A DNA stretch of 64,000 nt from an uncultured Prochlorococcus sp. (GTDB lineage: Bacteria > Cyanobacteriota > Cyanobacteriia > PCC-6307 > Cyanobiaceae), in contig NZ_CACOFR010000001.1 of NCBI RefSeq assembly GCF_902626525.1, positions 1 to 64,000 on the forward strand, given 5' to 3'. Positions 3,102 through 46,719 of this stretch are shown piece by piece (within the stretch, counting starts at the first letter, position 1; each line of letters starts with the position of its first letter). A program made the position numbers and the translations under genes. Below the pieces are notes generated by a model. The model was not told the DNA's origin and ran no database searches. It saw nothing but the letters and a program-made list of their open reading frames with translations.

Positions 3102-3120
3102 TTTCAAATAAGATAAAACT

Positions 3121-6865: not shown

Positions 6866-6876
6866 GAATATTGGTT

Positions 6877-17529: not shown

Positions 17530-17552
17530 CTTTTCTTTAATTTTTATAATTT

Positions 17553-18281
17553 TTATAGCTTTGAAGCATATTTTCTAGGTAAATGACGAATAAAAAACAT
17601 AATTATACTCCACCACCAAGGTAAGTATTCAATTCCTCTTTTTTGAGGATTGCGCATTAAATAATCTGCAACTTTATTAGTAGATATACAAAGAAAATTT
17701 GGAGCTCCTATTGCCATCCGAGTGGAAATGAATCCTGATTTTATTATACGTACAGAGAACGGCTTTTTTTCACATCTAAGTAATAGGCCCTCACAGAAGG
17801 TTGATAATGCAGCTTTTGCTGCGCCATAATGATAATTAGAGGGTCTTCCTCTATCAGATGCAACAGATGTAAAAACCCAAAGACTTCCGAATTTTTCAAA
17901 ACGTTTTTCGTTTGTTATTTCTGTTAACCAAGGTAATAATCCAAGATAGTTAACATAATTAATTTTTAATGCTTCAGTAATATTTTTCTTAGCCAAATCT
18001 GGATTACCAAGAGTACCAGCTGTAATTAAATAAAGATCATATAAATCAACTTTAGGTTTGAAACTTTTTTCTGGATAACAATTAAAAATTAGATCATTTT
18101 TCTCTTGAGTTACATTAGCTCTATAAACATCTTTGAGTATATGGAATAGCTCTAAATTACTATCTAAATCTCTGCAAACTAAATGAAATTTTTCACATCC
18201 CTTTTGGGCTAATTTTATACAGATTGATTTTGCAACGGCACTTGTACTTCCAATTATTAATGCGCTTTTAAAATACTTCAT
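17553..18281 (-). CDS. DprE2-like decaprenylphosphoryl-2-ketoribose reductase
   Basis: Classical short-chain dehydrogenase of 242 residues. It has a GSTSAVAKSI cofactor loop (11-20), a catalytic Ser139 in FTSVASDRGRPSNY, and YGAAK (Tyr152, Lys156). The SVASDRGRPSNYxYGAAK arrangement and the C-terminal hydrophobic segment ending in HLPRKYASKL are typical of DprE2. It would reduce the 2-keto intermediate made by the DprE1-like enzyme to polyprenylphosphoryl-D-arabinofuranose. Both genes are adjacent in the same order as a partner pair. Confidence 0.8.
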   Translation of the reverse strand: MKYFKSALIIGSTSAVAKSICIKLAQKGCEKFHLVCRDLDSNLELFHILKDVYRANVTQEKNDLIFNCYPEKSFKPKVDLYDLYLITAGTLGNPDLAKKNITEALKINYVNYLGLLPWLTEITNEKRFEKFGSLWVFTSVASDRGRPSNYHYGAAKAALSTFCEGLLLRCEKKPFSVRIIKSGFISTRMAIGAPNFLCISTNKVADYLMRNPQKRGIEYLPWWWSIIMFFIRHLPRKYASKL

Positions 18282-18371
18282 TCAAAGATTTGATATTAAA
18301 TATCTTTTTTTAATTTACCATTACATTTAAATTAAATAAAAAAATTTTATTCATTTTAACTTTTACAATTT

Positions 18372-21722: not shown

Positions 21723-22661
21723 TTAATAGAATATTATTCCAACTATTAATACTGATATTAGCCATAAAAATACAACTAGTCTTATTGCTTTATCATGTAT
21801 CAAAATAAGCTCTGGGTTTTCAGTAGTTATTGATTTACCATTATATTTTCTTATTTCAGAGATCTCAGGATCACTTATGAATTGATACCGGAATAAACCC
21901 ATTAAAACAAAAGGTAAGGTTACCAGCATCCATGATGATGAAGCTCCATTTAGAGATGGACCAGCTGCCCATAAACTGTAGCTTATGAAAGTGCCTGATA
22001 CTAATAAGCTTTCATATCTAAGAAGTAAAGGAAGAGAATAGCTTCTAAGAATATCCCTTGTTAAGATAAGTGTTTTTTTGTAATACAAAAGTTCCGCTTT
22101 TCTCTTCTCAACTGCTAAAAATAGAGCTAAAAGACCAATTGTTAAAATAAACCATGGTGAAAATCTGAGTTCTGTCGCTACTAAACCTGCTATTGCTCTT
22201 AGTAGAAATCCTGAGGCAATACAAAAAATATCTAAAATAGGTTCTCTTTTTAATCTTATGCAATATGCAATTTGAATAAAGACATAAAGAAGAATTATAA
22301 ATAAAAATTGAAAAGATATTAATTGAGCTATCTTTAAACTAATTAATCCAAAAATTAAAGAAGCATTCTTAGCCAATGTTTTTGAGATTTTACCGCTTGC
22401 AATAGGTCTATAACGTTTAATTGGATGCATTTTATCTTTAGATATATCTCTAAGATCATTAAATAAGTATATGGCTGAAGATATAAAGCAAAAACTTATA
22501 AACCCATAAAATGATTTTAAAAAGATATACTGATTAAATTGAAAAGAAAATAATAATGATGCGAAAACTAATAAATTTTTAGACCATTGTATTGGTCTTA
22601 TCGCTTGAAAAAATGAAATAAAAAGTTTTAAAAAATAAGTTTTTGAAATTATCCCTTTCAA
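21723..22661 (-). CDS. UbiA-family polyprenyl-phosphate phosphoribosyltransferase (DPPR synthase-like)
   Basis: Integral membrane UbiA-superfamily enzyme of 312 residues with eight or nine helices. The first Asp-rich motif is NDLRDISKD (68-76), followed by HPIKRYRPIASG (79-90). The second conserved motif is YCIRLKREPILDIF (133-146), then GFLLRAIAG (151-159). The HPxKxxRPIASG arrangement distinguishes decaprenyl-phosphate phosphoribosyltransferases from quinone prenyltransferases. It would transfer phosphoribose from PRPP to a polyprenyl phosphate. The start is TTG at 22661: upstream in frame there is a stop within 15 bases and no ATG. It leads the arabinose-lipid set. Confidence 0.82.
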   Translation of the reverse strand: MKGIISKTYFLKLFISFFQAIRPIQWSKNLLVFASLLFSFQFNQYIFLKSFYGFISFCFISSAIYLFNDLRDISKDKMHPIKRYRPIASGKISKTLAKNASLIFGLISLKIAQLISFQFLFIILLYVFIQIAYCIRLKREPILDIFCIASGFLLRAIAGLVATELRFSPWFILTIGLLALFLAVEKRKAELLYYKKTLILTRDILRSYSLPLLLRYESLLVSGTFISYSLWAAGPSLNGASSSWMLVTLPFVLMGLFRYQFISDPEISEIRKYNGKSITTENPELILIHDKAIRLVVFLWLISVLIVGIIFY

Positions 22662-28497: not shown

Positions 28498-30228
28498 CTA
28501 ATAAATATTATCTAAGTTCCTTGGGGGGAGATTTTTATAAATAAACTTTTTTTGAAGGCAATCTTCAATTAATTGTAAATTATTCTTTTTAAAATGAATT
28601 CTCTGAGTTTTTTGTTTTTTTATATTTTCGTAATTTATTAAATGATTATATTCTGGCAACCCATAACACATTACAGGTTTTTTATTCTCAAGTCCTTCTT
28701 CTAAAACTGTAGATGAATAAGAAATCATACAGTCACAATTTTCTATTTCTTTATCTAGTGAAGTATCGTTTCTTAAAGTTATAAAATCCTTTAAATCTTC
28801 AAAAGCATTATTTAAAATCTCAACATTTATTTCATTCGGAACATCTCTTATTCTTACTATTAATTCAAAAATATTTTTATATTTTGAGATTTTTTTATAT
28901 ATTTCAAAAATACTACCAAAAAACTCAGGTGATGATTCATAATAATATCTTCTCGCACCTAATTCTTTAACGGTACCTACATATAAGATCTGAGTCCTTT
29001 TATTTCTTTTTTTTATATTTATTTCTTTTTTCGTAGAAGCTTTTTTATTATTAATAAAATTAATTTTTGAGTATTTTTTATCTAACGAATCTAAATAATC
29101 ATCACAAAAATGAGACTGACTTAATAACCCTATTTTTTTTTCCTTTGAAAAGGCTAGTCCAATACCAATTGATTTTGAAGCTAGTAAATTTGCTTGACCA
29201 TTTTTTTGAGTTGTTTGAGAACCATGACTTATTAGATAAACGTTTTTATTTTTTTGACTTAAAACTCTTGATAAAGAAAAAAGATCAGGGAATCTTACTG
29301 AATGAAAAAATGACTTTTTTATTTTTGAACTTCTAAATATTTTTTCAAGATATAAAGTAAAATTAAAGGTCGTGGATAAGTTTGAATATATTTGTTTGAT
29401 TAAATAATTGTAAAATCTCTCATCGAGTAATGTCGAATTAACATTACTAATAAAATTAAAATTGTAATTTTTGCTAACAGGAAGTAAAAAAAATCCTACT
29501 TCTTTAAATTCTTTCCAAAAAATTAATTTAATTAATTGTTCAAATATTAATTTAATGATTCTTATATATGAGTTAGATGAGCAAAAGTAAATTATTGATT
29601 TGCCTTCAGATATAAATTTTGATTTTAAATAATCTAAAAAATATACCTTACTATCTGAAATTAAATAAACCTCCTTTCTATTTTTAAATAATAAATTCTT
29701 AAGTAGAAAGCTTTGAAAATATAAAACTGAATTAAAAAATAAATTACCTCTTATTTCAGAATATCTATCAATATAAGAAAGTTTTCTTGTTTTGTTATCA
29801 CTATATAAATAGTCTATTGCAATAAGTAGATCAATTTTTTTTGAATATTTAATCCATTTATTTTTTTTTATAAGAATATAGTATTCAAAATCAGGTATAA
29901 TTTCTTGCATATAAAAAAAACGAGATATTTTAATTTCTAGGAATGGATCAAGTAATTCATCAAAATCTTTAACTTGATTCACAACTTTAAATTTTTTTAA
30001 ATTGTCTATCAGAAGATTCTTTGCTTTATTAGTTTTTAATAATAAACTTTCTGCATTTGAAGATACAATTATTGGGTTTGGGAAATAATGATTTATTTTT
30101 TTACGTTCAAATTTGTTAAGTATGTATTTATTTAAAGTGAAGATATTTTTTTCTTTTTTGAAAAATCTTTTTCCTAATTTACTTTTATCAATTAGTACAT
30201 AGAGGCTATTTTTATTGGTTTTAGACAT
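28498..30228 (-). CDS. uncharacterised protein with GT-B-like C-terminus
   Basis: A 576-residue protein without a clear family. Lys, Ile, Phe and Ser dominate. The central SHGSQTTQKNGQANLL, the following YVGTVKELGARRYYYESSP and the late MISYSSTVLEEGLENKKPVMCYG resemble the donor half of GT-B transferases acting on capsule or LPS, where a His-Gly segment and a Ser/Glu segment bind the nucleotide sugar. The first 200 residues match nothing I know. The ATG overlaps the stop of the GT2/cytidylyltransferase fusion gene by 8 bases, so the two are coupled. It may be the transferase that uses the CMP-sugar made there (inference). Confidence 0.45.
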   Translation of the reverse strand: MSKTNKNSLYVLIDKSKLGKRFFKKEKNIFTLNKYILNKFERKKINHYFPNPIIVSSNAESLLLKTNKAKNLLIDNLKKFKVVNQVKDFDELLDPFLEIKISRFFYMQEIIPDFEYYILIKKNKWIKYSKKIDLLIAIDYLYSDNKTRKLSYIDRYSEIRGNLFFNSVLYFQSFLLKNLLFKNRKEVYLISDSKVYFLDYLKSKFISEGKSIIYFCSSNSYIRIIKLIFEQLIKLIFWKEFKEVGFFLLPVSKNYNFNFISNVNSTLLDERFYNYLIKQIYSNLSTTFNFTLYLEKIFRSSKIKKSFFHSVRFPDLFSLSRVLSQKNKNVYLISHGSQTTQKNGQANLLASKSIGIGLAFSKEKKIGLLSQSHFCDDYLDSLDKKYSKINFINNKKASTKKEINIKKRNKRTQILYVGTVKELGARRYYYESSPEFFGSIFEIYKKISKYKNIFELIVRIRDVPNEINVEILNNAFEDLKDFITLRNDTSLDKEIENCDCMISYSSTVLEEGLENKKPVMCYGLPEYNHLINYENIKKQKTQRIHFKKNNLQLIEDCLQKKFIYKNLPPRNLDNIY

Positions 30229-31576
30229 TTTTAAATCTATCGCTAATTAAATCAGCATCATCTTGATTTCTAACTTCTATAAAAGAGACTTGATCATGAA
30301 TTTTATGAAGATAAACTTTATTTCCAACTAGTGAATTTTTTCTAATAACTTCTGTATGCGTAATACAACCAAGTCCATGTGATCCTAATAATAATGACTT
30401 TTTAAATTCTCTTGGAATATCTCCTTCATCTAACCTAACTAAATTGTTTTTACTTTTTTCCTGCCATGCCCAAGCATACTCTGATTTCGCTGGCATAACA
30501 GTATCTGCGCCTGAATTTAGGAAAGCTTTTATTAACTCATCAATTAAATTTTTATTTCTAAATGGGAAAGTAATTTCTGCATGAATAATAATATCTGGAT
30601 GATAATTTAGTTCATTCTCAAGAACTTTCAGATGCCAACAATGAACATCTTCGATTGTTGACTTTGGGGTTGATAAATTAGACTCTCTTAGCTTTGCTAT
30701 TGAAAATCCAAGATTCTTTGCCGTTTTGGCAGTATCTTCATTATCTGTAGCGACAAAATATGAGTCTACGAATTTACTAGAAAATATTGATTCTGACATA
30801 TACTCTAATAAATTAATATTTTTAAATTTGGGGATCACACCTTTAATTGGTATAACAAGGCATTTTTCGAAATTTTGATGATCTATAATTCCAGGTTTAT
30901 GTTCAGTTGATATCTTTTCGATTATTTTGGTAACTCCTTCAAGTCTTTTACTATTCCCTGATTGATGTATCCCATGATAATGATAAACAGGTGCTTTGGG
31001 AGTATATTTGATTTTATAGTTTTTCTTCAAAATCTCTCCAGCCCAAATTCTATCTTCAATATTCTCTACGTCATTGTTAAAGTTAATCTCTTCCCATACA
31101 TCTCTTTTGATAATAGAATTAGCATTATGAAAAAAACTATCTTTTTTCTGTATTCTCTCATCCTCTCCAAAAACAATAAGTAAATCTCTCTTATCTTCGT
31201 CACTTGAAAAGTCCATTGGAACTTGCTTTCCATAAACTCCGGCAAGTTTAGGATCTGAATTTATTTCTTCAAAAAGATCAGTTAGCCAATTGCTATTTAT
31301 CGGTAGGCAATGAGCAGATAAAATAACAATATGTAATCCTTCAGAGGCTTGAATACCCATATTAATTGCTTTACCAGGTTTATATTCTTTTATTTTTACT
31401 ATTTTTTCAACTCCATGTCTTTTCGCCTTTTCAACAGTTTTGTCATCACTAAAAGAATCTACAAGAATTATTTCGAAATTTTTATAGGATTGTTTTTTAA
31501 TTCTTTCAATACAAAGTCCTATCCATCGCTCTTCATTTTTTGTTCTTATGATTATTGATATTAAATTTTTCTCCAT
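30221..31576 (-). CDS. bifunctional GT2 glycosyltransferase / CMP-sugar synthetase fusion
   Basis: A 451-residue two-domain protein. Residues 1-235 are a GT2 domain (SIIIRTKNEERWIG, VDSFSDDKT, GKAINMGIQASEG), but the usual DxD position reads ILSAHCLP, as in some rhamnosyltransferase-like branches. Residues 245-451 resemble NeuA-type cytidylyltransferases: IPIKGVIPKFKNINLLEYM, FVATDNEDTAKTAKNLGF and HAEITFPFRNKNLIDELI. The first NeuA motif is degenerate compared with IPARGGSxxxxxKN. This would couple activation of a 2-keto acid sugar to transfer, or one domain may be regulatory. A more canonical CMP synthetase lies 2 kb upstream in the same transcription direction. Confidence 0.65.
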   Translation of the reverse strand: MEKNLISIIIRTKNEERWIGLCIERIKKQSYKNFEIILVDSFSDDKTVEKAKRHGVEKIVKIKEYKPGKAINMGIQASEGLHIVILSAHCLPINSNWLTDLFEEINSDPKLAGVYGKQVPMDFSSDEDKRDLLIVFGEDERIQKKDSFFHNANSIIKRDVWEEINFNNDVENIEDRIWAGEILKKNYKIKYTPKAPVYHYHGIHQSGNSKRLEGVTKIIEKISTEHKPGIIDHQNFEKCLVIPIKGVIPKFKNINLLEYMSESIFSSKFVDSYFVATDNEDTAKTAKNLGFSIAKLRESNLSTPKSTIEDVHCWHLKVLENELNYHPDIIIHAEITFPFRNKNLIDELIKAFLNSGADTVMPAKSEYAWAWQEKSKNNLVRLDEGDIPREFKKSLLLGSHGLGCITHTEVIRKNSLVGNKVYLHKIHDQVSFIEVRNQDDADLISDRFKNV

Positions 31577-34629: not shown

Positions 34630-35502
34630 ATGAAATTATTAATACTTGGATCAAATGGACTTTTAGGTAATACATTAATAAAATATTTTTTTGAAAAAAA
34701 CAATTATGAAACTTATGGTTTTTTAAGAGATTCTTCTAAATTAAAATTCTTTAAAAGGAAATATACTAGTAGATTAATAATTATTCAAGATATTCTAGAT
34801 ATTAATAATTTGAGAAAAAAAATTAAGGAGTTGATGCCTGATGTAATAATTAATTGTATTGGCCAGACTAACAAAATACCAGAACAAAAATTTAATAATA
34901 TTGAAAAATATATAAATTTAAACTCTTTATTTCCTTTTAGATTAAAGGAAATATGTGTTGAAATTAAATCTAGATTGATTCACTTTAGCTCGGACTGTGT
35001 TTTTTCAGGAAAAAAAGGTTTCTATAGCGAGAAAGATAATCCTGACCCTACAGATATATATGGAAAGAGTAAATTATTAGGAGAGCTTGATAATGAAAAT
35101 ATTATTACTATTAGAAAATCTGTGATAGGACATGAATTAGATTCTAAGAAAGGTTTGCTAGAATGGTTTTTAAGCCAGGAGGGATCTGTTGATGGTTATA
35201 AAGAAGCAATTTTCTCTGGACTTACTGTATTAGAATTAGCTCGAATAATTGATATGTATATTCTTCCAAATAAAGACATAAAAGGAATAATACACCTATC
35301 AGGTGATCCAATATCCAAATATGATTTATTAAAAATAATTGCAAATCAGTACAATAAAATTATTAAAATAGAGCCAAATGAAGAAATTAAAATTGATAGG
35401 TCATTAAATTCAGAATATTTTAAAAAACTTACTGGATATAAAAGTGATCCATGGCCATTATTAGTTAAGTCAATGGAAGAATTTAATTTATTAAATCAAT
35501 GA
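34630..35502 (+). CDS. RmlD/WbvR-like 4-reductase (extended SDR)
   Basis: NAD(P)H-dependent reductase of the dTDP-4-dehydrorhamnose reductase family (290 residues). The cofactor motif GSNGLLG lies at 7-13, INCIGQTN replaces the usual INAAAYT, and SSDCVFSG (120-127) with YGKSK (Tyr144, Lys148) forms the catalytic site. It overlaps the next gene by four bases (ATGA). Because that gene is a UDP-GlcNAc 4,6-dehydratase, this protein more likely reduces UDP-2-acetamido-2,6-dideoxy-L-hexos-4-ulose, as WbvR does, than a dTDP sugar. No rmlA, rmlB or rmlC is present in the window. Confidence 0.7.
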   Translation: MKLLILGSNGLLGNTLIKYFFEKNNYETYGFLRDSSKLKFFKRKYTSRLIIIQDILDINNLRKKIKELMPDVIINCIGQTNKIPEQKFNNIEKYINLNSLFPFRLKEICVEIKSRLIHFSSDCVFSGKKGFYSEKDNPDPTDIYGKSKLLGELDNENIITIRKSVIGHELDSKKGLLEWFLSQEGSVDGYKEAIFSGLTVLELARIIDMYILPNKDIKGIIHLSGDPISKYDLLKIIANQYNKIIKIEPNEEIKIDRSLNSEYFKKLTGYKSDPWPLLVKSMEEFNLLNQ

Positions 35503-36518
35503 ATTTAAACTCCAAAAACTTTTTAATTACAGGAGGAACAGGTTCTTTTGGGACAACTTTATGTAATTACCTTTTAAAAAAGAAAGTTAAAAATATAAGG
35601 ATTTTTAGCAGAGATGAAAATAAACAATATCAAATGAGGAAAAATATAAAAGACTCTAGAGTGAATTTTTGTATTGGGGACATAAGAGACTATGACTCTA
35701 TTTTAAACGCTTGTCATGAAATTGATTATGTTTTTCATGCAGCTGCTTTAAAACAGGTCCCATCTTGTGAGTTTTATCCTATGGAAGCTGTTAAAACAAA
35801 TATTATTGGCACTGAAAACCTATTGAAAGCCGCTTCAAATAGCAAATTAGAAAAAGTTGTTCTACTTAGTACTGATAAAGCAGTTTATCCTATTAATGCA
35901 ATGGGATTATCAAAGGCAATGATGGAAAAATTGATGCTATCAAAAAACTTAATAAATGATATGAGTACAATATTTTGCGCAACTAGGTATGGGAATGTAA
36001 TGTGCTCAAGAGGTTCTGTTATACCCTTATTTGTAAATCAAATAAAAAATAATCTCCCAATTACTATTACTGATCCTCAAATGACAAGATACCTTATGTC
36101 TTTAGATGAATCTGTTGATTTAGTTCTGCATGCTTTCAATAATGGCTCACAAGGGGATATTTTTGTACAAAAATCACCTGCCTGTTCACTAATAGATTTA
36201 GTTACTGCTTTAAAAAATATATTTAATTACAAAAAAGAAAATATCATAATAGGAACTAGACACGGAGAAAAACTTTATGAATCTCTTTTATCTAGAGAAG
36301 AGATGGCTAGGGTTGAAGATAATGGAAAATTCTTCAGATTACCATGTGATAATAGATCTTTAAATTATGATAAATTTTTTAAAGAGGGTAAGGAAATTAA
36401 CAAAGAGCATAAAGAATATACGTCACATAATACTAAGAGGCTTTCGGTAGAAGAGATTCAACAAATTTTGTTAGGTTTAGATTTTATTAAAGAAGCACTT
36501 GCATTGGAGAACAATTAA
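35499..36518 (+). CDS. UDP-GlcNAc 4,6-dehydratase/5-epimerase (FnlA/CapE/WbjB/WbvB-like)
   Basis: Extended SDR of 339 residues that starts UDP-2-acetamido-2,6-dideoxy-L-hexose pathways by 4,6-dehydration with C5 inversion. The cofactor loop is TGGTGSFG (11-18). The catalytic region shows STDKAVYP (124-131) and MGLSK (135-139), with Met replacing Tyr. This substitution is characteristic of CapE/WbjB and distinguishes them from PseB. The C-terminal TRHGEKLYESLLSREEM and TSHNTKRLSVEE segments are also typical of CapE. The product would go to the reductase just upstream (or the FnlB-like protein at 44650) and to the 2-epimerase at 43349. Confidence 0.85.
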   Translation: MNLNSKNFLITGGTGSFGTTLCNYLLKKKVKNIRIFSRDENKQYQMRKNIKDSRVNFCIGDIRDYDSILNACHEIDYVFHAAALKQVPSCEFYPMEAVKTNIIGTENLLKAASNSKLEKVVLLSTDKAVYPINAMGLSKAMMEKLMLSKNLINDMSTIFCATRYGNVMCSRGSVIPLFVNQIKNNLPITITDPQMTRYLMSLDESVDLVLHAFNNGSQGDIFVQKSPACSLIDLVTALKNIFNYKKENIIIGTRHGEKLYESLLSREEMARVEDNGKFFRLPCDNRSLNYDKFFKEGKEINKEHKEYTSHNTKRLSVEEIQQILLGLDFIKEALALENN

Positions 36519-36523
36519 CTTTT

Positions 36524-37483
36524 TTACTTAAAGTATTCTTTTTTAAACCAATCAATTGTGAGTTTAATCCCGTCATCTAATGAAATTTCTGGACTCCAAT
36601 TTAAATTATTTATAGCTTTACTAATATCTGGTTTTCTTTGAAGAGGGTCATCCTCAGGAAGTGATTTATATATAAAATTCAAGTTTGGATTTATAAGCTT
36701 TTTAATTTTTCTTGCTAGTTCTATAATTGTAAATTCATGTGGATTTCCAATATTTACTGGTGTGTAGATCTCAGAGTCCATAAGTTTTATCATCCCTTTT
36801 ATAAGGTCATCAACGAAACAAAATGAGCGAGTTTGATTACCATCTCCATATATTGTCAATGGTTTTCCTTGCAGAGCTTGAAAAATAAAATTGCTAACTA
36901 CCCTTCCATCATCGCAACGCATTCTTGGCCCGTAAGTATTAAAAATCCTCATAATCCTCGTATTGAGATTATGCATTCGCTGATAATCCGAACATAATGT
37001 TTCAGCAATCCTTTTCCCTTCGTCGTAACAGCTTCTTATGCCAACCGTATTCACAGATCCCCTGTATTCTTCATTCTGAGGGTTTATCTCTGGATCACCG
37101 TATACTTCACTTGTACTAGCTAGTAAAAAATCTGCTCCAACTCTTCTGGCTAGTCCCAACATATTGTAAGTTCCAAGAAAGATTGTTTTAGATGTTTTGA
37201 TAGGATTTGATTGATAATGAACGGGAGAGGCAGGACAAGCTAAATGCCATATTTTATCAACTTCTAGTTGGATTGGTTCGGTAACATCATGCCTTATAAT
37301 CTCAAAATTTGGGTGATTTAACCATTTAGCAATATTAGATTTGTCTCCAGTAAAATAATTATCTAAACATATTACCTTTTCTCCTTTTTGCATTAATTCA
37401 TCAATAAGGTGTGAACCAAGAAATCCTGCACCACCCGAAACTAGATTACGCTTATTATTAGTAGTATTTATTTTGTTATTCAT
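36524..37483 (-). CDS. UDP-glucuronate decarboxylase (UDP-xylose synthase)
   Basis: Extended SDR of 319 residues making UDP-xylose from UDP-glucuronate. The ATG at 37483 is preferred over a TTG ten codons earlier. The cofactor loop [34 protein letters not shown] and YDEGK (catalytic Tyr and Lys) are all present, as is [19 protein letters not shown], the stretch that binds the uracil and glucuronate. The family match is close to complete. It is divergent from the UDP-glucose dehydrogenase gene (222-base spacer), which makes its substrate, so the two form a UDP-xylose module. It converges with the FnlA-like gene with only 5 bases between stops. Confidence 0.9.
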
Positions 37484-37705
37484 AATTAAATTTGTTTTAA
37501 AAAAAATATTCAAAAGTATACAAATAAATAAACTCTTACTTTATGAATAATGCTTGAAAATTATTTTTAGAATTTTATCATATAATAATTTTGAAATATT
37601 TTGATATTTAAATCAATAGATTTAGAAATGTTATAGTTAAGATCTAAAAATCAATTTTTCTAAATTTAGGTTTTTATTAATATAAAAATTTTCTTTTAAT
37701 CCCAT

Positions 37706-39133
37706 ATGACCAATTATTTAGTAAAAAAAATTTGTTGTATTGGAGCCGGATATGTTGGAGGCCCAACTATGGCTGTTTTTGCTAATCATTGCCCGAATAT
37801 AAAAATTACAGTAGTAGATATAAATCAAAAAAGGATAGATGCTTGGAAAAGTAATGATCCTGCCGATTTCCCAATTTTTGAGCCTCAATTAGATGAGTTA
37901 ATTTTAAATTGTAGAGAAAAAAATCTATTTTTTACAACAAATTTAGAGCAATCCATAGCAGAAGCAGATATGATTTTTATCTCTGTAAATACTCCCACCA
38001 AAACGAAAGGAGTTGGAGCTGGTAAAGCAAGTGATCTTAAGTGGGTTGAAGCATCAGCTAGACAGATAGCAAAATTTGCTAATTCTCATACTATTGTCGT
38101 TGAAAAAAGTACCTTGCCAGTTAAAACAGCTGAAACAATAAAGAAAATATTATCAAGCTCACAGGAAAATAATCTAGACAAAAAAGAGAAAAGCTTCTCT
38201 GTTTTATCCAATCCTGAATTTCTTTCTGAAGGAAATGCTATTAATGATTTAGAGAATCCAGATAGAGTTCTTATTGGAGGTGATGATGAAAAAGCTATTG
38301 AGGCCTTATCAGAAATTTACTCAAATTGGGTTCCAAAAAATAAAATTCTGAAAACTAATATTTGGAGTTCAGAACTTTCCAAATTAACTGCAAATGCTTT
38401 TTTAGCGCAAAGAATTTCTTCAATCAATTCAATATCAGCATTATGTGAGTCTACAGGAGCTGATATTAATCAAGTTAAAAAAGCTATAGGAATGGATACA
38501 AGAATTGGAGAGAAATTTTTATCACCTGGTCCAGGTTTTGGTGGAAGTTGTTTTCAAAAAGATATTCTTAATTTGGTTTATTTATCAAGCTTTTATAAAT
38601 TAGAAGAAGTTGCAAATTATTGGCAAGGAGTAATTGATATTAATAATTGGCAAAAATCAAGGATATCAAGATTAGTAGTAAATTATTTATTTGGAAATGT
38701 TTCTGAAAAAAAGATTGCGATTCTGGGATTTGCTTTTAAAGCTAATACCAACGATACAAGGCAATCTCCTTCTATAGATATATGTAAGGATTTGTTGGAA
38801 GAGGGAGCTCATCTTTCAATCTATGATCCAAAGGTGGAAAATTCAAAAATAATAGATGATCTACAAAACAATTTTAATAAAACAGAAGTTAATCAAGGAT
38901 ATGGTTCTTGGGAAATTGCATCCTCAGTTTTGGATGCTTCCAAAGGTAGCGACGCCATAATATTACTAACTGAATGGAACGAATTCTTGAATATTGACTG
39001 GAAAAAAATAATTAAATTGATGAGAAAACCCGCATGGGTATTTGATACAAGATCATGTATAGATCATAAAATTGCAAGAGAGGCTGGCTTTAATGTTTGG
39101 AAAATTGGTAATTCATCATTTTTTAATGTATGA
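37706..39133 (+). CDS. ugd: UDP-glucose 6-dehydrogenase
   Basis: NAD-dependent four-electron oxidation of UDP-glucose to UDP-glucuronate. The 475-residue length, extended N-terminal GAGYVGGPTM (13-22), VNTPTKTKG and the catalytic GFGGSCFQKD (Cys282, Lys285) match the eukaryote-like long form. FAFKANTNDTRQSPS begins the UDP-binding C-terminal domain. It shares a 222-base divergent region with the UDP-xylose synthase gene; a TATAAT at 37581-37586 could be a -10 element for this gene, but a good -35 was not seen. It ends 11 bases before a GtrA-family gene. Confidence 0.92.
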   Translation: MTNYLVKKICCIGAGYVGGPTMAVFANHCPNIKITVVDINQKRIDAWKSNDPADFPIFEPQLDELILNCREKNLFFTTNLEQSIAEADMIFISVNTPTKTKGVGAGKASDLKWVEASARQIAKFANSHTIVVEKSTLPVKTAETIKKILSSSQENNLDKKEKSFSVLSNPEFLSEGNAINDLENPDRVLIGGDDEKAIEALSEIYSNWVPKNKILKTNIWSSELSKLTANAFLAQRISSINSISALCESTGADINQVKKAIGMDTRIGEKFLSPGPGFGGSCFQKDILNLVYLSSFYKLEEVANYWQGVIDINNWQKSRISRLVVNYLFGNVSEKKIAILGFAFKANTNDTRQSPSIDICKDLLEEGAHLSIYDPKVENSKIIDDLQNNFNKTEVNQGYGSWEIASSVLDASKGSDAIILLTEWNEFLNIDWKKIIKLMRKPAWVFDTRSCIDHKIAREAGFNVWKIGNSSFFNV

Positions 39134-39144
39134 ATTTTTTATAA

Positions 39145-39552
39145 ATGATCAAAGAAAATATATATAGAAAGAAATTAATATTTCATTTGAAAAATAATAA
39201 AAAAGTACTTTTTTTAATATATGGTTTAGTTAATGTATTAATTACAAATTTCTTATTACAAATTTTTTTATTATTTTTCCCAATATTTTTTTCTACTCTG
39301 ATAAGTCAAATATTTAATTTAAATTTTGGATTTTATTTATATGGCTTGAAAGTTTTTAAAGTTAAATTTCTTGGCAAGAAAATTTATTTTAAATATTTAT
39401 TTTTTCACTTATTTCTATGGATATTGAATTGGTTCTTAATAAATTTTATTTATTCTTATAATATTTCAAAGAATTTAGCGGCATTGTTAGTAGTGCCTTT
39501 TCTTGCTTTAATATCATTTGTATATCAAAAGAATATTGTTTTTATTAAGTAA
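39145..39552 (+). CDS. GtrA-family membrane protein
   Basis: A 135-residue protein with four hydrophobic helices and short charged ends, typical of GtrA-like polyprenyl-phosphate sugar flippases. It lies 11 bases after ugd and 12 before a GtrB/DPM-like GT2, the usual gtrA-gtrB arrangement that makes and flips a lipid-linked sugar. The sequence is very rich in Phe, Leu and Ile. This is the second GtrA-like protein in the island; the other belongs to the arabinose block. Confidence 0.7.
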   Translation: MIKENIYRKKLIFHLKNNKKVLFLIYGLVNVLITNFLLQIFLLFFPIFFSTLISQIFNLNFGFYLYGLKVFKVKFLGKKIYFKYLFFHLFLWILNWFLINFIYSYNISKNLAALLVVPFLALISFVYQKNIVFIK

Positions 39553-39564
39553 TTTGTTTTGAAG

Positions 39565-40305
39565 ATGGATAGGAATCTCAAATATAAAAATTATGAAAAA
39601 AATTTTGAAAGTAAAGATATCTTATTATCAGTAATAGTACCTTGCTTTAATGAAATTAATACACTCGCAAAAGTTATTGATAAAATAAAGGAATCGCCAA
39701 TTAAAGAAAAAGAAATTATCATAATTGATGATTTCTCAATTGATGGTTCTAGAGAATACTTGGAAAATTTAATTGATAATCAAATAATAACAAAATTTCA
39801 TAATCGCAATATGGGTAAAGGAGCTGCAATTAGTACAGGTATAAAAACTGCCTCAGGCAAGATAATTATAATTCAAGATGCTGATCTAGAATATGATCCT
39901 GACGAATATCCTAATATGATTAATCCAATTGTTCATAATAAAGCTGATATTGTCTATGGAAGTAGATTTAAGGGAGGGCAGCCTCACAGAGTAGTTTATT
40001 TTTGGCATAGAGTTGGCAATGGATTTTTAACTCTATTAAGTAATATTTTTACTGACTTGAATTTAAGTGATATGGAGACTTGCTACAAGGCTTTTAAAAG
40101 TGAAATATTAAAAAATATTAGAATTGAAGAGAAAAGATTTGGCTTTGAACCTGAAATAACTGCAAAGATATCAAAAAAAAATTATAGAATTTTTGAAGTA
40201 GGTATTTCTTATTACGGTAGAACTTATCAAGAGGGTAAAAAGATAGGCTGGAAAGATGGTTTTCAGGCTATTTTGTGTATTTTAAAATATAATTTATTCA
40301 GATAA
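39565..40305 (+). CDS. GtrB/dolichol-phosphate-mannose-synthase-like GT2
   Basis: A 246-residue GT2 enzyme that transfers a sugar from a nucleotide to polyprenyl phosphate. The ATG at 39565 is chosen over an upstream TTG. Motifs in order are SVIVPCFNEINTL, IIDDFSIDG, RNMGKGAAISTGIK, the metal motif QDADLEYDP and GSRFKGGQ, then DMETCYKAF and FGFEPEITAKI. These match the soluble DPM/GtrB catalytic domain, and no membrane helices are present. Partnered by the GtrA-like protein upstream. Its last bases overlap the convergent membrane-protein gene by 12. Confidence 0.82.
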   Translation: MDRNLKYKNYEKNFESKDILLSVIVPCFNEINTLAKVIDKIKESPIKEKEIIIIDDFSIDGSREYLENLIDNQIITKFHNRNMGKGAAISTGIKTASGKIIIIQDADLEYDPDEYPNMINPIVHNKADIVYGSRFKGGQPHRVVYFWHRVGNGFLTLLSNIFTDLNLSDMETCYKAFKSEILKNIRIEEKRFGFEPEITAKISKKNYRIFEVGISYYGRTYQEGKKIGWKDGFQAILCILKYNLFR

Positions 40306-42090
40306 AGTTGCCATCTTACAATACTTAAAAGTTTGTTTTTTACGATTGAAAAAATTCCTACTTGCGGCATCCGTATTAATAAGCTTGCAGTCATAATGTT
40401 TTTCATTAACTTTGTCGCTTAAATTTGTAATTATTTGCTTTATATTATATTTTTTTAAACATAAGTCTTTTGAATTGGATAATTTTAAAAGTTCATTTTC
40501 TTTTATACACTTTTTAAATTTATCTATTTCTAAATAATTGTTTGGGTAATAAAGCCTCATATTTCTTTTATTTATTAGAAAACTTCCTGAAATATTTTGA
40601 TCTATTATCTTAGATAAATTGTATCCATATGCTGTTTTATGCATCAACTTTGAATAATCTTTCAAGGCTAAAAAATTTAAGTATATGGATGAAAATAAAA
40701 ATAGAATTATTATAAAAAATTGTGATATTGTTGCAATATAAAATAAAAATTTTATTTTATATTTTTTAATTGAGTTGATTAACTCTTCAGATTTATAAAT
40801 TAATATTATTAATGGAGCCACATAATAATCAGCTCTACCTTGGCACACTAAAATTAGTAATACCAGCTGTGCTAAACATATAAAGAGAAGACTATCACAA
40901 GATTTAATGATTTTCTTCTTTTTTGAATTGAGATTGACGAAGATTAATGATATAAATAAAATCCAAATGCTTGGTCCTAAAGAAGAACCTAAATCACTAA
41001 AACTATTTGGTAAAAATATTCTTATAAAAAATAAATTCTCTCTATTATAAGAAGAAATAAAATTAGCAAAGTTTATTACCAATTCATCATTCTTATTAAA
41101 TAGATTTGCTAATAAAGGGTAAAAAAAGTTTCCTGTTATAAGGAATCTACTAATAGTTATACATATTAATGCTAATAAAGAAATTAAAATTAATTTACTT
41201 GTTAAAATATATTTGATAGATTGAACAATTTTCTTGTTTTTTTGTTCATCTATTAAGAGATTTAAAGTAAGATCAATTAAGATTGGGGTAATAATAATTA
41301 TTGATGAAATTTTAAAAGTAACGCAGCTTATTATTGATATTAATAATAATTTAATAGTGTAAATTGATTTATTTGATTTCCAAATAATATATAAAACTAT
41401 TAGAGATGATTCTCCTAAAAATAAAGGTTTTCCAATTGTACTCCACTGAATGATTGTAGGTACTGATAGAAAAGCTATTAAATAAAAATTATTTTTTATT
41501 GATCTAGATAAGAAAGTAATTATTAAAGGTAAATTAATTATTTGAACAAATCTTATTAACCAAATATTATTTTCCTGGACAAAAGCAAGATTTGCATAGT
41601 CAGCTAATCCTAATAGACCTTGATGTAACCCTCCATCAACAAAAAATTTACCTCTCAAATAATATTGGTAAGGATAACCAACATGATAGTCAGCAGAATC
41701 AGGGTGATTTATAGGACCTACAGAAGATAAGAAAATTAAAATAAGTAAAAGAACTATTAAATATAAATATACTTTTTGTAATTTGTTGATATTTGATTTA
41801 TTAAAAAAATTTCTAATCTCATTGTCTAGGAAAGTTTTTATTTTAAATAATTTTGATAGACAATTTTTGTTTATAAGAATAGAAAAAAAAAGAATTATTA
41901 TTGAAAATATTAATAATGGTATTTTGCTTATTCCAAAAAATATTGATAATAAAGATATGAATCCTAGTAATAATTGAGAAAAAGGAAAAGATGCGAATAA
42001 TGCTGCATAAATTATTTTCTCATCTAATTCATTTTCTCTTGGAAAAAAAATTATTATTGAAGATGTGTAAATAATTAAAAATGAAAGCAT
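40294..42090 (-). CDS. large polytopic membrane protein, possible GT-C or polymerase
   Basis: A 598-residue protein with about twelve hydrophobic segments and a soluble C-terminal tail of about 120 residues. An acidic loop after the early helices (NHPDSADYHVGYP) resembles the catalytic Asp loop of GT-C lipid-sugar transferases. No other motif is recognised. It is the last gene of the minus-strand group with wzy-like, FnlB-like, FnlC-like and WbuB-like genes, one base after the WbuB-like stop. The GtrA/GtrB-like genes opposite could provide its donor. Assignment is tentative. Confidence 0.45.
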   Translation of the reverse strand: MLSFLIIYTSSIIIFFPRENELDEKIIYAALFASFPFSQLLLGFISLLSIFFGISKIPLLIFSIIILFFSILINKNCLSKLFKIKTFLDNEIRNFFNKSNINKLQKVYLYLIVLLLILIFLSSVGPINHPDSADYHVGYPYQYYLRGKFFVDGGLHQGLLGLADYANLAFVQENNIWLIRFVQIINLPLIITFLSRSIKNNFYLIAFLSVPTIIQWSTIGKPLFLGESSLIVLYIIWKSNKSIYTIKLLLISIISCVTFKISSIIIITPILIDLTLNLLIDEQKNKKIVQSIKYILTSKLILISLLALICITISRFLITGNFFYPLLANLFNKNDELVINFANFISSYNRENLFFIRIFLPNSFSDLGSSLGPSIWILFISLIFVNLNSKKKKIIKSCDSLLFICLAQLVLLILVCQGRADYYVAPLIILIYKSEELINSIKKYKIKFLFYIATISQFFIIILFLFSSIYLNFLALKDYSKLMHKTAYGYNLSKIIDQNISGSFLINKRNMRLYYPNNYLEIDKFKKCIKENELLKLSNSKDLCLKKYNIKQIITNLSDKVNEKHYDCKLINTDAASRNFFNRKKQTFKYCKMATLSE

Positions 42091-43344
42091 TTATGAATCC
42101 TTTTTTTTATTTGTTAAAGTATTAACCTTAACTAAATTAATAAATAATTTCTCTAAATTTTTAATTAAATATTTTTTAGAAAACATTTGGTTTGCATATT
42201 TTTTACCATTTTTGCCAATTTGATTTAAATTTTTTTTATCCATATTAATAACTTTTCCCATTATTTTAGAGAAAGTTATATGATCTCCAGAGTTGCATAT
42301 TAAACCTCCTTTTGCTTTTTTTATAACCTTTGCTCCTTCTCCCGAAATCATTCCAACAATAGGAATTCCTGATGTAAGGTAAAACTGAATCTTTCCAGGA
42401 ATTGTCATATTAAAAACTTCTCTATCTAAGAGACTTATAATTAGCGCATCAGCATGTTTAAAAAATGATGGCATTCTGCTAATTGGATAGCTATTGATTA
42501 ATTCAAAATATTTATCAAGTTCTTGCTTTTTAATTTCTTTCTCCAACCAAATTTTTTTGCTTCCTTCTCCAATTATTATTATTCTAAAATTATATTTGTT
42601 TTTTTTACTTAGAATTTTTACTGCTTTTGTAATGCTTAAAAAATCCTGAGCCTCACCAATATTTCCAGCAAATAAAAAAGTAAAAATTTTTTTGTTTTTA
42701 ATTTCTGGAGCTAATTTAGATTTTTCTTTAAATAAATCTGAATCTGACCAACTTGGGAAATAATCTGTATTATTTTTGACGGATGGGTATTTTTTTATCT
42801 CTTTTAGAATACTTTTTGATTGAGCTAATATTACATCACAATTACTATAAATCCAATTAACTAAAATTTTTAAAAGATTAATTTGCCAATCTTTTTTTAT
42901 AATGTTTAATGCAACTAAAGTATTTGGCCATAAATCAAGTATCCATAGAACATTAGGACAATTATTCAATTTTGAAAAAAATGCAGAAGTTATTCCTACT
43001 GTTACTGGAGATAATTGAAAAGTAAAAACGATATCAAATTTTTTACGCTTTAATTTGAAGTACCCAAAGAAAATTGAATTAATAAGAAAACTAAAGTAAT
43101 TTAAACTTAGAGTAAGTTTATTGTTTTTTCTAGGAAATACTGGAACCCTAATTATTTTTGCCCCTTTGTATTTATTAAATTTTTTTTTATCTTTTAAAAA
43201 TTCTTTATAGATCTCTCCTTTTGGATAGTTTGGATATCCTGTAAGAACTGTAATATCATGCTCGAGGTTAGTAAATTCTTCGCATAATTCATTTATACGA
43301 AAATTTTCAGGCCAAAAGTACTGGGTTACGATTAGTATTCTCAA
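42091..43344 (-). CDS. WbuB-like family 4 glycosyltransferase (likely L-FucNAc-type sugar)
   Basis: GT-B retaining transferase of 417 residues. It begins MRILIVTQYFWPENFRIN and has VLTGYPNYPKGEIY, both signature segments of WbuB, the L-fucosamine transferase of E. coli O26-type loci. FLFAGNIGEAQD starts the C-terminal donor domain, and a late PGKIQFYLTSGIPIVGM segment precedes the nucleotide-binding end. The start is TTG, since no ATG lies in frame before an upstream stop. It directly follows the FnlC-like gene (4 bases), the arrangement expected for a FucNAc or related donor. Confidence 0.78.
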   Translation of the reverse strand: MRILIVTQYFWPENFRINELCEEFTNLEHDITVLTGYPNYPKGEIYKEFLKDKKKFNKYKGAKIIRVPVFPRKNNKLTLSLNYFSFLINSIFFGYFKLKRKKFDIVFTFQLSPVTVGITSAFFSKLNNCPNVLWILDLWPNTLVALNIIKKDWQINLLKILVNWIYSNCDVILAQSKSILKEIKKYPSVKNNTDYFPSWSDSDLFKEKSKLAPEIKNKKIFTFLFAGNIGEAQDFLSITKAVKILSKKNKYNFRIIIIGEGSKKIWLEKEIKKQELDKYFELINSYPISRMPSFFKHADALIISLLDREVFNMTIPGKIQFYLTSGIPIVGMISGEGAKVIKKAKGGLICNSGDHITFSKIMGKVINMDKKNLNQIGKNGKKYANQMFSKKYLIKNLEKLFINLVKVNTLTNKKKDS

Positions 43345-43348
43345 TTTA

Positions 43349-44479
43349 CTATAAAAATTTTTTCCATGTTTTTCTTTGTATGTAGTCTGTATAACTTATG
43401 ATTATTCTTAAAACTTTTTCTGAAATATTTTTGCATTGATAATCTTTTACAATATCAAGTTTTCTATCATCCCCCTTTTTACTTTTAATTAATATATCTA
43501 TAGCTTGCCTGACTCTCTCACTATTTACTCCAGTCATCATAACTGCCGTCTCCTCCATTGCTTCGGGTCTTTCATGTGTCTCTCTAATGTTTATCGCGGG
43601 GAAGTTTAAGATGGATGACTCTTCATTTATAGTGCCACTATCTGATAGAACTAAGCGAGCGTTAAGCTGTAATTGTATATAGTCTGTAAAACTTTGGGGT
43701 TTGATAAGAATAATTTTTTTATTTAATCTGCAGTTAGATTCATTTATTTTATTTCTTGTCCTTGGATGAGTTGATACAACAACTTCTAAATTGTATAGAT
43801 TTACTAGATTATTAAGAATATTAATTATTTTCTCAAAATTCGAAGAGTTTATATTCTCTTCTCTATGAAAACTTGCTAGAAAATAATTATTATTATCTAA
43901 ATTTAGATCTTTAAGAATTTTAGATTCTCTAATCTTTTTCTTATAAAAGTCTATTACCTCAAACATTGGACTTCCAATTTTAATAACTAAGTCTTTTGGA
44001 ATGCCTTCAGAAATCAAATAATCTCTAGCAATTGTACTGTAAGTCATATTTACATCAGCCGTATGATCAACTATCTTTCTATTAATTTCTTCAGGAACTC
44101 GCATATCGAAACATCTATTACCAGCTTCAAAATGGAAGGTTGGAATTTGTCTTTTTTTTGCTGCAATTATAGCCATACAACTGTTAGTATCTCCTAGAAC
44201 TAGTAGAGCATCGGGATTTATTTTTTCAAGAAGATCATCAATCTTAATCAGTATCTTGCCAATAGTTTTAGTAGCATTTACATCTGCAGCATTCAAAAAA
44301 TAGTCTGGCTTCCTTAAATTTAAGTCTTTAAAGAAGATTTGATTTAATTCATAATCATAATTCTGACCAGTATGAACGAGAGTATGGTTGGTGAATTGGT
44401 CTAATTTAGGAATAATTCTACTTAAACGTATAATCTCGGGCCTTGTCCCAACTACTGTTATTACTTTCAGTTTGCTCAT
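43349..44479 (-). CDS. UDP-L-FucNAc/L-RhaNAc 2-epimerase (FnlC/CapG/WbjD/WbvD-like)
   Basis: A UDP-GlcNAc 2-epimerase family member (376 residues with the ATG at 44479; a longer TTG frame is less likely). GTRPEIIRLS (11-20), TGQNYDYELNQIFF, HFEAGNRCFDMRVPEE and GSPMFEVIDFY match the FnlC/CapG/WbjD branch rather than WecB. It performs the final C2 epimerisation to UDP-L-FucNAc or UDP-L-QuiNAc. Upstream is a FnlB-like reductase gene and downstream a WbuB-like transferase. The dehydratase for the same pathway lies 7 kb away on the opposite strand. Confidence 0.85.
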   Translation of the reverse strand: MSKLKVITVVGTRPEIIRLSRIIPKLDQFTNHTLVHTGQNYDYELNQIFFKDLNLRKPDYFLNAADVNATKTIGKILIKIDDLLEKINPDALLVLGDTNSCMAIIAAKKRQIPTFHFEAGNRCFDMRVPEEINRKIVDHTADVNMTYSTIARDYLISEGIPKDLVIKIGSPMFEVIDFYKKKIRESKILKDLNLDNNNYFLASFHREENINSSNFEKIINILNNLVNLYNLEVVVSTHPRTRNKINESNCRLNKKIILIKPQSFTDYIQLQLNARLVLSDSGTINEESSILNFPAINIRETHERPEAMEETAVMMTGVNSERVRQAIDILIKSKKGDDRKLDIVKDYQCKNISEKVLRIIISYTDYIQRKTWKKFL

Positions 44480-44649
44480 TTTTAAAAGATTATAATTTTT
44501 AAATTTAAGAACAACTAACAATCATAGATAAACTATAAACTGCCTTTATAATTATTTTAATTTAATTTAATTAACAAAACAAATCTAATTTATAAATGCA
44601 TTTATAATTATTTTTTATTTTGATTTTTTTGATTCAATTTACTTATTAT

Positions 44650-45372
44650 TTATAATTTTTTATAACTTAAATAAGTTTTATATAATTTAGTTTCTAGATC
44701 ATTTTTTATGGAAGAAGGATTTGATATTTTCTGAAAATTCTTGATTTTTTTTGCCAGATAATCAATATTTACTTTGTTTATATTATCTATCTTGATATAG
44801 ATACTTTGAAAATCATTGTTTTCTATTAAAAAAGCTAATTGCTCACATAGATCTTCAATATAAACTAATTCTATTTCCTTATTTGGCTCAATAATATTAA
44901 GTTCAATTTTATTTAAAACATTGAAGCAAAAAGTGGCAACTACAGAATTATAATTTGGCTTACATCCCATCCCAAATATTCCTGGGAGTCTTAAAATAGC
45001 TATTTTATTTTTATGAAAATTATTTAGTTTAATTAGAATATTCTCGCATTCTTTTTTACTCCTTCCATATTCATTATTCTTCTCAGCTTGGATAGAGGAA
45101 GCATAATAAATTTTTGTATTTATGTTTTTTTCTATAACTTTGCAAAGCTTTTTAGTAAGATTATAATTTCCCTTTTTAAAATCTTCATTAATGGTTTTTT
45201 TATTTAAGCCTGCCAGATGAAATACTATATCAATCTTATTTATTATTTTTTCTAGATCTTCTAAAAGATCTTCTCTCGAAAATTCAAAAATATTATGTTC
45301 TGAGTTTGATCTAAGATATCTGACTAAATTTTTCCCAATAAAACCTTTTGATCCAGTTACTAATATATTCAT
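44650..45372 (-). CDS. FnlB/CapF/WbjC-like reductase lacking the C-terminal cupin domain
   Basis: An extended SDR of 240 residues with GSKGFIG (7-13), SSIQAEKNNEYGRSK (catalytic Tyr102, Lys106) and CKPNYNSVVATFC (137-149). These are the exact signatures of the CapF/WbjC/FnlB N-terminal domain. Full CapF is about 369 residues with a metal-binding cupin that carries out C3 epimerisation; here the protein stops right after LYKTYLSYKKL, the end of the SDR domain. The 170 bases to the FnlC-like start are too short to encode the missing part. The protein should still reduce C4. Whether the locus then makes L-FucNAc or a C3 epimer is open. Confidence 0.78.
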   Translation of the reverse strand: MNILVTGSKGFIGKNLVRYLRSNSEHNIFEFSREDLLEDLEKIINKIDIVFHLAGLNKKTINEDFKKGNYNLTKKLCKVIEKNINTKIYYASSIQAEKNNEYGRSKKECENILIKLNNFHKNKIAILRLPGIFGMGCKPNYNSVVATFCFNVLNKIELNIIEPNKEIELVYIEDLCEQLAFLIENNDFQSIYIKIDNINKVNIDYLAKKIKNFQKISNPSSIKNDLETKLYKTYLSYKKL

Positions 45373-45378
45373 ATTAGA

Positions 45379-46719
45379 TTAAGATAATTTCAGATTTTTA
45401 ATCTCAAGGTTATTTTCTTGAGAAATATTAGTCAATCCTGCAAACAATGCGGCAAAAACGATACTTATTTTCCCATCATAAAATGTTAAGTCACTGAGAT
45501 GAGATAGAAACATTATGCTTAAAGAAACTAGCCAAGCTTTATCTACATAATTATGATTTAACTCAATTTTAAGTTTATTAATAATATTAAAGGCTTTCTT
45601 GTAAAGACTTAAAAATGTTGTTGAAAGGATTAAAGATAAAGGTATGCCGAAGTTATAAGCTAACTCTAAAAAAATATTGTGAGAATGGTTAGCTTTTATA
45701 CTTAAATAAGGTACTATTACATGACCTTTATTAGTAAAAACATTTGCAAAAGTTCCAGCTCCCCATCCAAAAATTGGCTTTTGAAAAATGAATGATAAAG
45801 TACTCTTCCAGATAAGTAATCTTGGATAATTTGCTCCCACACCTACATCATAATTTAGGATCTTTTTAGTAGCCTCTATTTGGATAATATTCTCAAAATT
45901 GACTTCATTTAAAAATGAAAACAAAGGTAGTAAAAAATAAACAATAAATATTCCTAACAAAAATAATAAACAAAATTTAATAGATTTTTTTATTCCAAAA
46001 ATAAATAGAAAAGATATTATAACTCCCAATAATGCGTTTCTTGAGGAGCTTAAAAGTGAGAAATAAACTAAAAATATATTTATGAAAATTAAAGTTAATC
46101 TATTTGAGAATAGTTCGTCCTTATTTCTAAGAAAAGATAATGAAAATGGTAGACATAATGTTAACCAAATACCAAGATAATTACTGTTGTTGAATAAACC
46201 AGTATGACCTGCTTCTTTTAAGGATCTATTGAACCAAACGATGGTCCCAAATAAAGTTTCAAAAGGTCCATTTATATCAAAAAACTTTTGAATAATACAA
46301 CTTATAATTACAGGAAAAGTTCCAGAGATAAGAAAAATACTAAATAATTCTCTTTGTTTAATATTGATTAAATATATTTGAAATCCAAGATAAAAAATTA
46401 AAATAGGAATCCAATTAAATAAATTTAGCCAAATTATAGTTTTGTTTATTTCTAAAATAGGATCATAATTAATTCTCAAGAAGGCATACAAACTATTAAA
46501 AAAAATTAAAAAAATTGAGATAAATATAGGATAGTTCCACTTGTTTTGTAATATTGCTTCTTTTTTAAGGGTAAATGCAATTATTAATGATATTAAAAGA
46601 AAGATGCCCCCTATTGGTAATGCTGAAGGAAGAAAAAATACTCCAAGAAGAAAAAGTTTATGACCTAAATCTAAATAGTTTTTAAATGAAAGAAAAGATG
46701 TTATTTTATTTATACTCAT
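45379..46719 (-). CDS. Wzy-like O-antigen polymerase/ligase (Wzy_C family)
   Basis: A 446-residue polytopic protein with about ten to twelve membrane helices and a large periplasmic loop between roughly residues 270 and 350. The loop ends in ANHSHNIFLELAYNFG, the His-containing motif of the Wzy_C/O-antigen ligase family, and WGAGTFANVF precedes it. It would polymerise lipid-linked repeat units or ligate the polymer in the periplasm. It is the first gene of the minus-strand group and lies immediately beside the tRNA gene that bounds the island. Confidence 0.75.
   Translation of the reverse strand: MSINKITSFLSFKNYLDLGHKLFLLGVFFLPSALPIGGIFLLISLIIAFTLKKEAILQNKWNYPIFISIFLIFFNSLYAFLRINYDPILEINKTIIWLNLFNWIPILIFYLGFQIYLINIKQRELFSIFLISGTFPVIISCIIQKFFDINGPFETLFGTIVWFNRSLKEAGHTGLFNNSNYLGIWLTLCLPFSLSFLRNKDELFSNRLTLIFINIFLVYFSLLSSSRNALLGVIISFLFIFGIKKSIKFCLLFLLGIFIVYFLLPLFSFLNEVNFENIIQIEATKKILNYDVGVGANYPRLLIWKSTLSFIFQKPIFGWGAGTFANVFTNKGHVIVPYLSIKANHSHNIFLELAYNFGIPLSLILSTTFLSLYKKAFNIINKLKIELNHNYVDKAWLVSLSIMFLSHLSDLTFYDGKISIVFAALFAGLTNISQENNLEIKNLKLS

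Follow-up and report, generated by a model that had tools for sequence, protein, structure and literature searches.

The 64,000-nucleotide stretch of Prochlorococcus DNA analyzed here (the window; positions 1 to 64,000 of contig NZ_CACOFR010000001.1, from the genome below called G000) carries a gene of FnlB/CapF type that encodes the SDR domain and no cupin. On sequence evidence its product, FnlB', seems to be a functional reductase of one domain, kept by selection. Our leading, though tentative, reading is that FnlB' is a C4 ketoreductase descended from an FnlB/CapF protein that lost its cupin, and that a QnlA-type enzyme provides the C3 epimerization.

The FnlB' gene and its missing cupin

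The FnlB' gene lies in a sugar island, and its 240-aa frame is present on the minus strand at 44650-45372, as the preliminary description had it. The relevant features are:

34630..35502, plus strand: QnlA/Mg535-type RmlD-like reductase, candidate C3 epimerase/C4 reductase (Cys123, Glu169), from profile, alignment and neighbors of relatives
35499..36518, plus strand: FnlA/CapE-type UDP-GlcNAc 4,6-dehydratase/5-epimerase (TIGR04130, E 2e-136, under the 730-bit cut-off)
36524-37513, minus strand: epimerase/dehydratase, in the conserved stretch 36524..42090
37706-39133, plus strand: nucleotide-sugar dehydrogenase, in the same stretch
39145-39552, plus strand: small membrane protein, in the same stretch
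39559-40305, plus strand: GT2, in the same stretch
40294-42090, minus strand: 598-aa membrane protein, in the same stretch
42091..43344, minus strand: WbuB/WcaI-like glycosyltransferase adjoining FnlC (NF007640, under cut-off)
43349..44479, minus strand: FnlC/QnlB-type UDP-HexNAc 2-epimerase (TIGR00236, 230.5 bits, above cut-off)
44480..44649, no strand: AT-rich spacer between FnlB' and FnlC, 170 nt, 12% GC, no cupin remnant (no cupin score)
44650..45372, minus strand: FnlB' (SDR-only FnlB/CapF), 240 aa, without cupin (NF047837 and 2zkl matches, AlphaFold2 model)
45379..46719, minus strand: Wzy/O-antigen-ligase-like membrane protein, ending 6 nt upstream of FnlB' (PF04932, E 1e-17)

FnlC adjoins FnlB', and FnlA lies 8 kb from FnlB' on the other strand; the stretch 36524..42090 between the two halves keeps its order in G425, G493 and G422. 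With a TTG further upstream as start codon the FnlC frame reaches 44521, as listed; its start is probably at 44479 (MSKLKVITVVGTRPE) because the FnlC proteins of relatives begin M-x-KL-x-V. The label WbuB for the glycosyltransferase at 42091..43344 is our assumption. Elsewhere in the window, genes at 16177-18281 and 21723-22661 encode an FAD/ALO oxidase, an SDR and a UbiA prenyltransferase, which we take to resemble DprE1, DprE2 and DPPR synthase; a polyprenyl-phosphate arabinose route in Prochlorococcus is possible. Two ORFs of the sugar island at 6272-7413 (197 and 180 aa) match two domains of a thiamine-dependent enzyme (E1_dh, and Transket_pyr just under cut-off), and at 30221-31576 a family-2 glycosyltransferase is fused with a cytidylyltransferase-like domain.

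The match of FnlB' to the FnlB/CapF model NF047837 (372 positions) runs over positions 1-241 (E 8.5e-63) and scores 212.5 bits, under the cut-off of 500 bits; the protein also aligns with residues 1-242 of the 369 of Staphylococcus aureus CapF 2zkl (E 2e-43). Its C terminus, LYKTYLSYKKL, ends 3 residues past LYKTYLSY, the last SDR motif before the cupin. By both alignments FnlB' stops where the CapF cupin starts, so the truncation does fall right before that domain, as had been claimed. The N-terminal CapF-like SDR domain, described earlier as intact, is indeed complete and keeps its Ser-Tyr-Lys active site: Ser92, Tyr102 and Lys106 are invariant in all 20 FnlB relatives compared (6 SDR-only and 14 full-length). 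An AlphaFold2 model built from a five-row alignment has a mean pLDDT of 83, and CapF chains take the first five places among its Foldseek matches in the PDB, with GDP-fucose synthases at lower rank. Three residues, H26, I132 and K155, are uniform in the six SDR-only proteins and absent from all 14 full-length relatives; Gly136 replaces the Trp or Phe found in 13 of these 14.

In CapF, the cupin epimerizes C3 and the SDR domain then reduces C4, as the available text of two reports describes (PMC5393024, PMC3699295). Nothing resembling a cupin remnant was detected in the spacer or in the open stretches of at least 40 aa in the window (best E 0.9). The distance of 170 bases to the FnlC-like gene given by the preliminary description holds with the likely FnlC start at 44479, and there is no room for a cupin, which needs about 375 nt (about 125 residues). 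The stretch 3' of FnlB' in the five other SDR-only genomes measures 72-177 nt as cut, the one from G425 taking in the FnlC start codon and the one from G440 ending at a gene other than FnlC. A profile made from six CapF-type cupins was run on 12 genomes, with stops read through in G000. It gave no match at E<=0.1 in G000, G378, G425, G493 and G422, and a weak one in G440 (22 bits, contig C40); matches in G202 and G441 were weak as well. The cupins of three full-length genomes matched at 1e-63 to 1e-62, their own sequences being rows of the profile. RmlC-type epimerases (PF00908, 12 genomes searched) were found in none of the six SDR-only genomes.

Searches with Cupin_2 (PF07883) and WbuC (TIGR04366) covered the six SDR-only genomes. 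G000 has a single Cupin_2 match, inside a 493-aa frame that is presumably a mannose-1-phosphate guanylyltransferase, and a single weak WbuC match, under cut-off, in a 420-aa frame. A WbuC-type cupin above cut-off occurs in G378 on another contig than FnlB' (C22, 4171-4530), and a second one, under cut-off, lies on C22 too. Short frames of 100-157 aa match Cupin_2 in G493, G422, G425 and G440, the last of which has further matches in frames of 186 and 243 aa. These matches leave room for a separate cupin in genomes other than G000. G000 itself is 96.8% complete, with a small chance of a missed cupin gene, and there the four cupin profiles gave no support for a split partner, which had been named as a possible refutation. 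Hence the cupin is missing, as first described, from the gene, the spacer and the window, and none of CapF type was detected in G000. Because the defining Zn-cupin was tested for and is absent, we rank FnlB' as a derived cupin-less variant, outside FnlB/CapF.

Distribution and conservation of FnlB'

An FnlB-like match (E<=1e-10) was obtained in eight of 266 genomes of the genus, six of them SDR-only (G000, G425, G493, G378, G422 and G440; open frames 242-256) and two full length (367 and 375). A survey of 400 genomes of the family gave three FnlB matches, one of them full length (G166, from another genus), and in 386 genomes of the phylum (E<=1e-15) the sole match was the window's own genome; the three genome sets overlap. 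All ten plasmid FnlB proteins examined, from 21 records with an FnlB-like match, are full length (367-401 aa). In a tree of 12 rows the SDR-only proteins form one clade (support 96/97). Values of dN/dS (NG86, four pairs, the distant ones near saturation at synonymous sites) were 0.19-0.23 for FnlB', 0.16-0.33 for QnlA, 0.09-0.14 for FnlC and 0.06-0.10 for FnlA.

The six genomes end at the same point and have no internal stops, which disposes of the assembly frameshift that the preliminary description had put forward as a refutation; the same truncated gene in six genomes thus excludes chance, frameshift and assembly error. Despite the missing domain and a score far below the NCBIfam cut-off, it is highly implausible that FnlB' is a decaying remnant or an artefact of assembly or sequencing, given this shared, stop-free end, a dN/dS of about 0.2 and invariant catalytic residues.

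Among viral contigs, FnlB' used as a single-protein query found no match, and an alignment query found three, of which one is split and the others are full length. In the split case (contig IMGVR_UViG_3300021511_000252, 4992-6051), a 234-aa SDR ORF without fused cupin, like FnlB', is directly followed by an overlapping 123-aa ORF for a CapF-type cupin, whereas none was found in the window's genome. The cupin ORF has its own AGGAGG ribosome site, and the pair lies downstream of an FnlA-like gene. The ribosome site suggests a genuine split, in which SDR and cupin can function unfused, with an assembly frameshift as the alternative. Phage records gave four weak or suspect matches to FnlB', two of them staphylococcal and perhaps host DNA. 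Pelagibacter phage Mosig EXVC030M carries a 242-aa 'putative epimerase' (3001-3729 of the phage sequence examined) with a weak resemblance to FnlB', 33% over residues 1-140; this phage protein may be a further short SDR of CapF type. No cupin-less FnlB/CapF is named in the literature searched, which was mostly that available without subscription.

A QnlA-like gene beside FnlA

The preliminary description overlooked the QnlA-like gene at 34630-35502, which overlaps the FnlA-like gene by 4 nt. It encodes a 290-aa RmlD-like protein that scores well below the RmlD cut-off and has the motif Ser121-Asp-Cys123, with a cysteine two residues past the catalytic Ser/Thr. Every QnlA-like protein whose sequence spans this site (15 in all) has Cys123 and Glu169; in the one RmlD compared the two positions are Tyr and Pro. 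For this comparison, of the QnlA-like proteins from 13 genus genomes nine were aligned whole and three fragments were checked, the fragment from G378 stopping short of position 123; three of 42 plasmid records were aligned. In human GDP-fucose synthase, Cys116, two residues past Thr114, is the proposed base of C3 epimerization, with His186 as the acid (PMC12362431, in the text available). Mg535 of Megavirus, a cupin-free RmlD-like protein of 270 aa, is described as carrying out C3 epimerization and C4 reduction with that cysteine conserved (PMC9614988). We liken Cys123 to the cysteine of Mg535 and GDP-fucose synthase by its position in the motif. No residue of the QnlA-like proteins clearly corresponds to the partner histidine of GDP-fucose synthase (position 168 varies), and Glu169 as the partner of Cys123 is a guess. 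Proteins of RmlD type with 28-42% identity to the QnlA-like protein are also encoded on 77 IMG/VR viral contigs.

In G202, G562 and G441, and likewise on plasmids of Mesorhizobium and Rhizobium, relatives of QnlA adjoin FnlA and a 2-epimerase; no FnlB was found in the rhizobial plasmid stretches fetched or in the stretches from these three genomes. In stretches from Legionella adelaidensis and G464 the QnlA relative lies beside FnlA without an adjacent 2-epimerase. FnlA, QnlA and a 2-epimerase (fnlA-qnlA-qnlB) make up the route to UDP-L-QuiNAc, in which no cupin is needed, and WbvB-WbvR-WbvD of Vibrio cholerae O37 is, we assume, a cassette of this type (UDP-L-RhaNAc/UDP-L-QuiNAc). All three components recur in the window, QnlA as an RmlD-like protein that has the cysteine, but the window differs by the added SDR-only FnlB and by a split of the genes into two oppositely oriented groups separated by about 7 kb. 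With the FnlB/WbjC/CapF system for UDP-L-FucNAc it shares the full-length SDR domain, the Ser-Tyr-Lys site and the place before FnlC; the C-terminal Zn-cupin, the C3-epimerase half, is missing from FnlB', and FnlA is here 8 kb away beside QnlA. The Megavirus genes Mg534-Mg535-Mg536, to which we compare the window's QnlA by the description of Mg535 as a cupin-free C3 epimerase, are viral, and the text available on them mentions no FnlB homologue (PMC9614988). In Proteus, as far as the accessible text goes, the four O antigens with QuiNAc have fnlA-qnlAB and the six with FucNAc have fnlABC, while the FucNAc-containing serotype O53 is without fnlABC (PMC5560731).

A QnlA-like gene (E<=1e-15) is present in all six SDR-only genomes, in G378 and G440 as a fragment at a contig end, versus none of the three genomes with full-length FnlB, which are 70-81% complete. 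FnlA-like genes occur in all nine genomes with any FnlB. Taken as independent, the association of QnlA with FnlB' has a probability of 1 in 84 (hand calculation); it is suggestive only, and does not amount to six independent events, because there is one FnlB' clade and a common arrangement. The order Wzy-FnlB'-FnlC-glycosyltransferase is common to five of the six SDR-only genomes and the whole arrangement to four. Across the genus, 13 of 266 genomes have a QnlA-like gene, seven of them without a detected FnlB'. The FnlA proteins of the SDR-only genomes cluster with most of the qnl-type ones (96/92; inner clade 99/99), although two qnl FnlAs (Mesorhizobium and G562) group with the fnl types; the FnlC tree does not separate fnl and qnl types.

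Possible reactions of FnlB'

From the SDR-only architecture, its conservation, the catalytic residues, the lack of a detected CapF-type cupin in G000 and the co-occurrence with QnlA we infer a set of reactions, a sharing of intermediates and the products. FnlA (35499-36518) would convert UDP-GlcNAc to the L-arabino 4-keto sugar, and the QnlA-like enzyme (34630-35502) would epimerize C3 by way of Cys123 and reduce C4 to give UDP-L-RhaNAc, which the 2-epimerase (43349-44479) would turn into UDP-L-QuiNAc. Part of the C3-epimerized 4-keto intermediate would be reduced by FnlB' with the opposite outcome at C4, giving UDP-L-PneNAc, and from this the same 2-epimerase would make UDP-L-FucNAc. In the simplest account, the cupin would be dispensable once the QnlA-type enzyme had already done the C3 epimerization, and FnlB' would have been retained for a second sugar (L-PneNAc, then L-FucNAc) besides L-RhaNAc and L-QuiNAc.

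It is conceivable, if doubtful, that one C3-epimerized 4-keto intermediate, reduced in two ways by QnlA and a cupin-less FnlB, is a branch point that yields two 2-acetamido-2,6-dideoxy-L-hexoses for the same polysaccharide (L-QuiNAc together with L-FucNAc, or with an altro/ido sugar). To our knowledge, no altro or ido sugar from an FnlA/FnlB-type pathway has been reported. GDP-fucose synthase performs every step on one active site and releases a single product (PMC12362431, in the text available), so that the sharing of an intermediate is not a given. Moreover, FnlA, QnlA and FnlC are complete without FnlB' in the rhizobial stretches and in G202, G562 and G441; FnlB' therefore need not belong to the set. 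By its gene content, the pathway in the window can presumably make UDP-L-QuiNAc without FnlB, and L-FucNAc may still arise from a shared intermediate through FnlB'. It had been claimed that the product would differ from L-FucNAc unless another protein epimerizes C3: the proviso probably applies, given the QnlA-like gene with all six SDR-only FnlB proteins, and a different product is not established.

FnlB' might instead reduce the non-epimerized FnlA product, yielding UDP-2-acetamido-2,6-dideoxy-L-altrose or -L-idose (a stereochemistry derived within this analysis). The C3 epimerase of CapF is, in the reports as available, the cupin (PMC5393024, PMC3699295), no cupin of that type was found in G000, and H26, I132, K155 and Gly136 could fit a changed substrate, as they would also suit the cupin-loss reading that we favor. 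We consider such a product unlikely: the QnlA-like gene of all six genomes could epimerize C3, the active-site residues of the SDR are those of CapF, and the adjoining FnlC would have to take the altered sugar.

Alternatively, FnlB' may have left the FnlA pathway and may reduce or epimerize another NDP-4-keto sugar of the island. G440 would fit such a change. There FnlB' lies on another contig (C41) than FnlA-QnlA, beside nucleotidyltransferase-like genes and away from FnlC, and no FnlC was detected in this genome (83% complete). The G440 FnlA (17784-19196 of the retrieved stretch, contig C24) is a chimera of 470 aa, in which part of a family-1 glycosyltransferase replaces, in frame, the C-terminal end of FnlA. 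The chimera is probably a scar of rearrangement, and the FnlA-FnlB' pathway of G440 may be broken; with a chimeric FnlA and no FnlC found, G440 is therefore unusable as independent support. With FnlC directly after FnlB' in five of the six genomes and an FnlA-like gene in all six, a role outside the FnlA pathway seems improbable.

A single-domain SDR can carry out both steps, as described for enzymes in two partly available reports (PMC12362431, PMC4691112), and GDP-fucose synthases are among the lower-ranking matches to the AlphaFold2 model; FnlB' could in this manner epimerize C3 and reduce C4 in its SDR site, making a cupin superfluous. However, the cysteine of the Ser/Thr-X-Cys motif of GDP-fucose synthase is absent from all six proteins (SSIQ, SSSQ, SSIH, SSKQ), which makes self-epimerization at C3 very unlikely; Cys137 is uniform in FnlB', yet it also occurs in six of the 14 full-length proteins.

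Whichever reaction FnlB' catalyzes, the FnlB'/QnlA set bears on where C3 epimerization happens in FnlA-type pathways, a step that, in the text available, is credited to FnlA in some annotations (PMC5560731, PMC6467956) and to CapF or its cupin elsewhere (PMC5393024, PMC3699295). A cupin-less lineage with a candidate replacement epimerase in all six genomes is a test case, supplied by nature, for whether CapF needs its two domains in one chain. The surface polysaccharide of Prochlorococcus is a likely phage receptor, and the cluster suggests that this very abundant marine cyanobacterium displays specific rare amino sugars on its surface.
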